Of a DNA stretch of 64,000 nt, positions 61,745-64,000 are shown piece after piece. Positions within the stretch are counted from its first letter, which is position 1, and every line of letters begins with the position of its first letter. The stretch is taken from the NCBI GenBank assembly GCA_034521575.1, contig JAXHMJ010000003.1, forward strand, positions 310,001 to 374,000. The letters are read 5' to 3'. The notes below the pieces were generated by a model that ran no database searches, was not told where the DNA came from, and saw only the letters and a program-made list of their open reading frames with translations. Both the position numbers and the translations under genes were made by a program. This DNA is from a candidate division KSB1 bacterium. Lineage in GTDB: Bacteria; Zhuqueibacterota; Zhuqueibacteria; Residuimicrobiales; Krinioviventaceae.

Positions 61745-62383
61745 ATACAGTTCCGTTTTTTAGCGGAAAGCTGGTATTATTTTTGTATCTTTTGGTGGAA
61801 ACCTCAATATGGTGAATTTTATGATCAGATGGGCCATGACATGAGTATTTATTGTTCTGATCATAATATGTGTGTTGCTGAATATCAGACAGGAATGAGT
61901 CGGGTTGGATTGTTGTCCGATTCTGCAGCGTTCAAGCGGTTTTATTTTTATCCGGGTGGGGTGGGGGTGGGCAGGGAGTTCTCAGAAAATTATGGAATTT
62001 CTAAATGGTCAATAGGTGAAGGCGGGGCAGGCGCCCGGGCTGTTTTGACGTTTGCGCGAATCAACGGTGAAGAGTTTGGAGAGTTTGTCAGTACTGTCGG
62101 TATGCGGAAAAATCCTTTGATCTTTGAGCTCGGACAAAATTACCCCAACCCGTTCAATTCAACAACCTTTATCGAATTTAATCTCCTATCATCTTCTCAG
62201 ATCACATTGACAATCTATGATATGACAGGAAGAGTAGTTGACAGGGTATTGGATGAATATAAAAGTCAAGGTCATTACAGCATGAAATGGACTGCGCCTG
62301 GCGCATTGGCGAGTGGGGTGTATTTTTATCAATTGCAATCTGCGAGGCAATCTAAAATTAAGAAATTTGTTTATTTGCAATAA
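61745..62383 (+). pseudogene. 5'-truncated secreted protein with type A sorting domain
   Basis: The frame is open from 61745 without a start until ATG 61829, yet codons before that ATG already read like protein (KPQYGEFYDQMGHDMSIYCS). There is no signal peptide. The C-terminus is a full sorting domain: GQNYPNPFNSTTFIEFNLLS, LTIYDMTGRVVDRVL, SGVYFYQL and a final KKFVYLQ. Cargo of this kind needs a signal peptide, so the 5' end must be missing through deletion or an upstream frame shift. An expressed cytoplasmic fragment from 61829 is the less likely alternative. Confidence 0.65.
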
Positions 62384-62455: not shown

Positions 62456-64000
62456 ATGAAAAAGAACAAAACAGAGCAATTGGAGTTTGAGCTTGCCTAT
62501 TTGGCGCGGCTCACGCGTGCCGGGATCAAACCCCTCAGCCGCTGGGAAAAGACGCTGACGCCGAATCAGGTCGAGGCTCTGGAATCCCTCAAGCTGAAAG
62601 TGGCGCATGTTTCGAGGCGTTTGGATACCGGTGATATCTGTACAGAGTCTGTATTTTCGCATTCAGAAGGTTCGATCGATCTGTATTTGTCCGCGTTTGA
62701 AGGCAAACCCGTGCGCAAAAATCCGGTTCATCGCCGGATGGAGGGAATGCTGTTTGGATTTCCGTCCTGCTGCATTGAGCACTATATTGTGCATGGGTAT
62801 GCACCCAATGATCTGGAGAGCCATGAACAGGAGCTTTTGTTTCATTGGGCGTGTCCGCATTGTGAGTTGACGCGCAAGCTGCTGCCGCTGTATCGGCAGA
62901 CCTTTGAGTCCTGTAAAAAAATGCAGCATATCCCGGAGCGGGCGCGATCCAACCGGTCGTTCCTGAAACAAACTTGTGCCGCGGTCACGGCTCTGTCCGT
63001 CCTGGTGAGCGGCGCCGCGCTGTTAATGCCGCCTGCGGTCCAGTCCGCCCCTCGGGATATCGACCTGCATCATCTTGACCTGCCGGACGATATGGATCAG
63101 GATCAGGATTTCCTCAATGATAATTATGAAGTCATATGCGGCACAGAACCGGGTAATCCGGATACAGATGACAACGGAAAACTCGATGGAATTCAACTCG
63201 CGCAACACCTCGCTGCTGTCCTGGACAGCCTGCCGCACACACCGCAGAAAAATCGGCCCTATATCAATGATTTTGAGCTGCGGGGACTGGAAACCTGTTC
63301 CATTTGTCAGGAAACGGTTAATATGGGATATGCGCAGATTGTGAATCCGCTGGAGCATCTTTCCATCGAGACACCTTATCTGTCTCTGCATCATTTTCTT
63401 TCTCACGGCAGTTTCGCCTATGAGGGTGATGTCCATGGCAAAGGCTATGTCAATGCGGGGCTGCTCTGCAAAGTCGCAGCCGGACGCGGCGGATCGCACA
63501 TCACCATTGTTGAGCCGGATGCTGATGCAGATGGGCTGCCGGATTCCGAGGAAATGTTCTGGGGTAATGATCTTCAAAATCCGGATACTGACAACAATGG
63601 AAAACCGGATGGTGAACAGTTGGCACTGCGCTATGCACAGGAAATAAACAGTCTCGGCAGAAACGCGTCTCACGATTCCGTTTATGTTGAGGAGTACAAA
63701 ATGCGCGGTGTGGTCATGTGTCCGCATTGCGGTCAGTCCGTCAATATGGGATATATGCAGGTGATCAATCCGCTGCGCAAGGATTCGCTGCGCGTGTCGT
63801 ATCTCCAGCATCATTTTTTCAGCTGTGGCAGTTTTAACAGTCCCGGAGAAGCGGATTCTCTGCTGACACCGCACCGGCTGCGCGATATTTTGTCGACAGC
63901 ATCCGATCTGCATCATCTGCCGGTTATTCCGGATGCTGATAAAGATGGTTTGACGGATGAAGAGGAAAGCCAATTGGGAAGGATGATCTATGATCCGGAT
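62456..64000 (+). CDS. Modular repeat protein with Cys-rich N-terminus and Ca-binding-like loops (runs off the window)
   Basis: The frame is open for 515 codons to the right edge. GAGG lies 5 bases before ATG 62456. Residues 1-170 form a Cys/His-containing domain (MLFGFPSCCIEHYIVHGY, C105/C106; HWACPHCEL, C133/C136) reminiscent of DUF483-like proteins. One hydrophobic helix (AAVTALSVLVSGAALL, 175-190) follows. After it comes a repeat of about 141 residues. Each unit has a thrombospondin-3/EF-like acidic loop (DMDQDQDFLNDNYE and NPDTDDNGKLDG; DADADGLPDSEE and NPDTDNNGKPDG; DADKDGLTDEEE) and a CxxC (281/284, 422/425). The CxxC is followed by VNMGY.Q..NPL and HHF..(H/C)GSF. A membrane-anchored, surface-exposed, metal-binding protein is inferred. 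I know no characterised homologue. Confidence 0.8.
   Translation, partial: MKKNKTEQLEFELAYLARLTRAGIKPLSRWEKTLTPNQVEALESLKLKVAHVSRRLDTGDICTESVFSHSEGSIDLYLSAFEGKPVRKNPVHRRMEGMLFGFPSCCIEHYIVHGYAPNDLESHEQELLFHWACPHCELTRKLLPLYRQTFESCKKMQHIPERARSNRSFLKQTCAAVTALSVLVSGAALLMPPAVQSAPRDIDLHHLDLPDDMDQDQDFLNDNYEVICGTEPGNPDTDDNGKLDGIQLAQHLAAVLDSLPHTPQKNRPYINDFELRGLETCSICQETVNMGYAQIVNPLEHLSIETPYLSLHHFLSHGSFAYEGDVHGKGYVNAGLLCKVAAGRGGSHITIVEPDADADGLPDSEEMFWGNDLQNPDTDNNGKPDGEQLALRYAQEINSLGRNASHDSVYVEEYKMRGVVMCPHCGQSVNMGYMQVINPLRKDSLRVSYLQHHFFSCGSFNSPGEADSLLTPHRLRDILSTASDLHHLPVIPDADKDGLTDEEESQLGRMIYDPD

Follow-up and report, generated by a model that had tools for sequence, protein, structure and literature searches.

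The gene described here lies at the end of a 64,000-nt window, the whole stretch of DNA that was analysed (positions 310,001-374,000, forward strand, of contig JAXHMJ010000003.1, assembly GCA_034521575.1), from a candidate division KSB1 bacterium of the Krinioviventaceae. An open frame runs on the + strand without interruption from the ATG at 62456 to the window edge, as an earlier sequence-only reading of this DNA had stated, and the contig beyond the window carries it on to a stop at L002:6622. This ATG, with a GAGG-like Shine-Dalgarno sequence ~7 nt upstream, is the better of two in-frame starts and yields a protein of 721 aa, the other (62423) giving an ORF of 732 codons. The parts follow one another as an N-terminal domain, a hydrophobic segment, three units each consisting of acidic loops and a CxxC/HxxxH module, and a tail resembling the FlgD_ig and T9SS type A domains (Table 1). 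The sequence-only reading had correctly located the SCC and CPHC motifs along with the acidic loops and a hydrophobic helix; it saw two full units and the beginning of another, and the recovered downstream contig brings the number of modules to three and supplies the FlgD_ig / T9SS type A-like C-terminus. It had also considered that a stop or frameshift just past the edge might reveal a decayed fragment. No such interruption is present, dN/dS between relatives is 0.11-0.22 (eight pairs), and the full ORF together with this purifying selection rules out decay. The protein is intact and conserved, no description of it turned up in the libraries and papers searched, and its gene is the only one of its kind in its genome. 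A short ORF just upstream (61829-62383) closes with a T9SS-type tail (LGQNYPNPFN), preceded by little else, and may be the remnant of a secreted protein.

Table 1 Features of the module gene and their positions in the window or, where marked, past its edge.
Feature	Position	Strand	Details	Basis
Part of the gene inside the window	62456..64000	+	gene ends ~0.6 kb past the edge, with its stop codon at contig 374619-374621	ORF and contig extension
Putative cytosolic N-domain, probable distant DUF483 relative	62462..62923	+	KPLSRWE, EGxLFGYPxCCVE, FHWxCPxC	76-member alignment, AF2, weak PF04467 matches
Internal signal-peptide-like segment	62960..63049	+	hydrophobic core after basic residues, then small residues ahead of the mature start	hydropathy, cleavage sites of relatives
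Ca-loop pair 1, TSP3/EF-like	63080..63190	+	DMDQDQDFLNDNYE ... PDTDDNGKLDG	direct sequence; weak EF-hand_6 and TSP3_bac matches
Module 1 (CxxC ... HxxxH)	63230..63478	+	C63296, C63305, H63392, H63404	module alignments A2 and A5; AF2
Ca-loop pair 2	63497..63613	+	invariant leading His at 63497	invariant column H149 in A5; profile match to Bap/lanmodulin EF loops
Module 2 (CxxC ... HxxxC)	63653..63901	+	C63719, C63728, H63812, C63824	module alignments, AF2, repeat alignment
Ca-loop pair 3	63914..64000	+	start only	contig extension, profile matches
Module 3 and T9SS-type tail	L002:6001-6619	+	past the window edge	contig extension, profile matches

Since the CxxC motifs begin at residues 281, 422 and 558 (numbered from ATG 62456), the period of 141 residues previously read from C281 to C422 is real and is followed by one of 136. 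Module 1 aligns far above chance with module 3 (45% identity, E 8e-22) and with module 2 (38% identity, E 8e-18). In the module alignment both Cys and the first His are invariant (179/179), and the NMG following CxxC is nearly constant. Four residues after the first His stands a second His in 144 modules and a Cys in 6, and because about 16% of modules have neither residue at this position, a four-ligand zinc site is not universal. A c-type heme site (CxxCH) was rejected, as no conserved His follows the CxxC.

The AlphaFold2 model of a two-module array (pLDDT 91) places CxxC at a beta hairpin and HxxxH on a helix, a layout that appears treble-clef-like by our own reading of the predicted secondary structure. 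Treble-clef and C2H2-type fingers (zf-C2HC_2, PF13913; the FmdE treble clef; the PARP zinc finger) likewise combine a hairpin CxxC with a helical HxxxH/C about 28 residues away, a spacing that we take to be close to that of the PARP finger. The profile of zf-C2HC_2 matched 3 of 26 modules weakly (best 8e-4) and PARP1 gave E 0.42; the modules differ from these fingers in their tandem, presumably extracytoplasmic arrangement and in lacking a PDB fold match, with no Foldseek hit to the two-module model at E <= 0.001 and a best probability of 0.15 among the matches listed. Searches against Pfam, NCBIfam and PDB sequence profiles returned weak zinc-finger matches and no convincing match to the module, which agrees with the suggestion of a new domain; neither the module nor the layout in which it occurs, a single gene here and a neighbouring pair in Planctomycetota, corresponds to any characterised family.

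A His begins each unit and is followed by a pair of loops whose suggested TSP3/EF character gained support from weak matches to EF-hand_6 and TSP3_bac (PF18884; 12.9 bits for this protein and 24.9 bits for the relative L035, cut-off 25) and from matches of the array profile A5 to the EF loops of Bap (E 0.007) and lanmodulin. The pattern DxDxDGxxDxxE plus PDTDxDGxxDG is shared with TSP3 repeats and EF-hand loops in general (PF18884, PF13405; Bap, lanmodulin, CglD, MtsD), whereas here such loops appear only as linkers, each pair standing ahead of a CxxC/HxxxH module. To our knowledge, TSP3 and EF-hand families do not carry a module of this kind. Judged from these motifs, the units probably bind calcium and zinc, and the extracellular CxxC could form a disulfide instead of a metal site.

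The N-domain is modelled with a pLDDT of 94.6, and 76 aligned N-domains share 20 invariant columns, including the CC of GYPxCC and both Cys of FHWxCPxC. While its SCC and CPHC motifs had been recognized correctly, the domain is not wholly without kin: 63 of the 76 sequences match PF04467 (DUF483) weakly, with a best E of 4e-5. The scores listed (14.1 bits for the window's protein, 20.0 and 21.9 bits) all lie below the gathering cut-off of 25 bits, no PF04467 match above it occurred in the own genome or phylum, and no DUF483 proteins from which to build a deeper profile were found in the window's phylum or in viral contigs. The N-domain contains the LGYPxCC motif of DUF483, and hhalign against three phage DUF483 proteins gave E 1.6e-5 (prob 79) over 17 columns; the case for kinship is built on some 17-19 columns aligned around LFGYPxCC, and by eye the alpha-beta layout around the motif is also alike. 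We regard the N-domain as a probable distant relative of DUF483 and not as a member; unlike DUF483, it is fused to a signal peptide and exported modules that follow it. Its best PDB fold match was 2guk of P. gingivalis (prob 0.99, TM 0.63 by target, 11% identity, E 0.054 and hence above significance), a protein of unknown function, and this likeness in fold is no evidence of a shared function. The entry 2guk is presumably PG1857, and we assume that it belongs to DUF2023. PG1857 is a DUF2023 protein encoded in a flavodoxin operon and induced under iron lack (PMC10434189).

A scan of GTDB genomes yielded 95 loci, of which 80 were kept. The relatives are sparse but share one plan, with one to seven modules each, across about a dozen phyla: they were found in KSB1, Calditrichota, Krumholzibacteriota, Eisenbacteria, Latescibacterota, Zixibacteria and WOR-3 and also in Cloacimonadota, Marinimicrobia, Poribacteria, Ignavibacteriales, Verrucomicrobiota and Planctomycetota. 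Of these, the Verrucomicrobiota, Planctomycetota, Poribacteria and Latescibacterota lie outside the FCB group, whose metagenomes had been named earlier, along with UniRef, as a place to search. The spread is patchy, the gene being present in 13 of the 82 genomes of the window's phylum and modules in 6/248 genomes of one Planctomycete class. Viral contigs contained no relatives, and a viral origin was ruled out. The longest array seen, in a verrucomicrobial relative of 1271 aa (L034:7962-11774), has seven modules and a different C-terminal tail.

Nearly all relatives possess both the N-domain and the array, fused in 57 proteins including that of the window, and genes with modules alone were found neither among the 82 genomes of its phylum nor in 21 further gene-bearing genomes. 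In Planctomycetota, a separate gene encodes the modules behind a signal peptide of their own, with the N-domain gene directly downstream on the same strand. A module search across 248 class-mates, made without using the N-domain, found modules in 6 genomes and the N-domain in 7, the two being adjacent in all six module genomes; the remaining genome (G280) has an N-domain gene without modules. The split form constitutes one clade in the tree (support 99/92). As the two halves are separate, adjacent genes in this clade, a joint function in cis or in trans is probable. No conserved twin-arginine motif was seen by eye in the Planctomycetota proteins, and a Tat signal was discarded. One Planctomycete module protein (L147:2400-3605) ends in a dockerin-like stretch (DLNEDCKEDFADFAEFADKWL) and not in a T9SS tail.

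A hydrophobic stretch separates the two halves in 57/57 fused proteins (KD > 1.5 in 48), and in most of them basic residues precede it, indicating an N-in orientation. Cleavage was judged by eye and by hydropathy: many relatives have AxA-type, signal peptidase I-like sites ahead of a conserved DPHW start (TAGLASA/EDSHW, LPAAA/QDPHW), and two Zixibacteria have the lipoboxes LLAG/C and LLTG/C at the same place. These sites favour a cleavable internal signal peptide over a permanent anchor at the place where the sequence-only reading had seen a membrane helix, and the head is therefore probably cut from the exported array. Of the intracellular metal site joined to an extracellular array that was envisaged there, the joint encoding of the two halves stands; a lasting connection is less likely, with the head probably cleaved off here and a separate gene in Planctomycetota. 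An internal start producing the exported part alone was rejected, since in 40 of the 57 fused proteins no Met stands ahead of the hydrophobic segment and the two halves stay linked in frame. The C-terminal tail scores just short of the T9SS type A cut-off (22.1 bits vs 23) and at that of FlgD_ig (27.0 vs 27), and the tail of the relative L062 reaches 34.4 bits for T9SS type A. The T9SS component SprA (SprA_N) was detected in 13/13 gene-bearing genomes of the phylum, so that a C-terminal sorting domain (TIGR04183 / PF18962) coincides with a T9SS in the genome, as in type A cargo. This tail is replaced or absent in some relatives, namely in family f2 of the window's phylum, Zixibacteria, Planctomycetota and Verrucomicrobiota.

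At the level of sequence, the intact frame, its conservation, the co-occurrence of the halves, the predicted folds, the signal features and the gene neighbourhoods are best read as a metal-stabilised array that is exported to the surface and served by a dedicated partner in the cytosol, a reading to which we give about an even chance. We infer the metals, the cleavage, the role of the partner and the extracellular function as follows. The precursor would consist of a cytosolic, Cys-rich domain distantly akin to DUF483, an internal Sec-type signal peptide and an exported chain of one to seven units, here closing in a T9SS sorting domain, each unit comprising an EF/TSP3-like calcium loop pair and a compact, zinc-finger-like CxxC...HxxxH/C module. 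Signal peptidase most likely splits the head from the array, which would cross the outer membrane via the T9SS and be displayed or released outside, probably acting there as a binding scaffold stabilised by metal, with a serpin and a DUF3160 protein as neighbours in several lineages. The head would remain inside as the dedicated partner, serving metal or thiol maturation or the upkeep of export competence. This would account for their almost constant joint encoding, as a fusion in most phyla and as neighbouring genes in Planctomycetota. A more specific version, in which the head, as a maturation enzyme or metal loader, modifies its own fused array before export, appears distinctly unlikely to us; an enzyme would then be encoded ahead of the signal peptide of its own substrate and freed by signal peptidase. 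Such a head would be akin to the DUF483 proteins, which reportedly adjoin radical SAM and methyltransferase proteins or are fused to them (PMC11437467).

Were the signal anchor left uncleaved, the protein would be a bitopic one-component sensor joining a cytosolic metal or redox site to an extracellular Ca/Zn array, for which the N-in flanking charges and the strong conservation of the head could be cited. We consider this unlikely given the cleavage sites and lipoboxes before DPHW, a T9SS tail that implies release into the periplasm and passage through the outer membrane, and a head that is a separate soluble protein in Planctomycetota. The position of the head ahead of the signal peptide and its near-strict pairing with the array would also suit a secretion monitor or regulatory leader, in which export of the array pulls on or frees the N-domain and so controls expression of the operon. 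This idea is improbable: the Planctomycetota N-domain, encoded by a separate gene after the array gene, cannot sense export of the nascent chain in cis, and the folded N-domain, rich in invariant residues, looks more enzymatic or metal-binding than like an arrest peptide. Somewhat less doubtful is an ordinary TSP3/EF-loop adhesin with an odd insert, whose modules would be disulfide-bonded or structural spacers and whose head a chance fusion; its calcium loops resemble the TSP3 repeats of CglD and MtsD and the EF loops of Bap, and its T9SS tail is generic. Spacers would hardly retain CxxC and His throughout 179 modules with other positions variable, or exchange His for Cys at the second position, and a chance fusion accords poorly with a head that is fused to the array in about a dozen phyla and lies next to it in the split genomes, the halves co-occurring far above chance.

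The neighbourhood of the gene suggests a further possibility, compatible with the exported array and its partner, namely that the array inhibits an adjoining serpin/DUF3160 set or serves as its substrate or cofactor. Of the 13 genomes of the phylum that have the module gene, 8 have a serpin within 5 kb of it, against 0.04 expected from genome length without correction for kinship; these cases span three families and two arrangements, and a DUF3160 gene is adjacent in 5/13. Serpin or DUF3160 neighbours, mostly on the same strand in KSB1 and these lineages, occur as well at Marinimicrobia, Calditrichota (Calditrichaceae) and Latescibacterota loci, and at one locus a VIT-domain gene lies nearby. 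We keep this role as a tentative and rather doubtful proposal, as the linkage is missing in most lineages, for instance at the loci of Cloacimonadota, WOR-3 and Verrucomicrobiota and in the genome of the window itself, and serpin and DUF3160 are paired also in genomes without a module gene (e.g. G020, G043). DUF3160 is listed only as a secreted enzyme (PMC4158269), and our literature searches on the precursor layout and on serpins in KSB1 found no papers. A link to cobalamin, raised by a PduO-type gene seen by eye downstream in the window's genome, was dismissed, other loci lacking that gene.

If the preferred reading of an exported array with a cytosolic partner is correct, these proteins would add a new extracytoplasmic metal module occurring widely among uncultured phyla, together with a precursor of unusual layout, leading from a folded cytosolic domain through a signal peptide to a secreted array, the natural split version of which makes the partnership testable. 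The analysis also highlights a bacterial serpin-DUF3160 neighbourhood to which the papers searched assign no function. Serpin and DUF3160 genes stand side by side repeatedly across phyla (L130, L131, L132, L140, L143, L077), some of these pairs with a VIT/VWA-domain gene. The serpin region of the window's genome (L137:6103-8312) contains two overlapping serpin ORFs, the second without the first ~60 residues.
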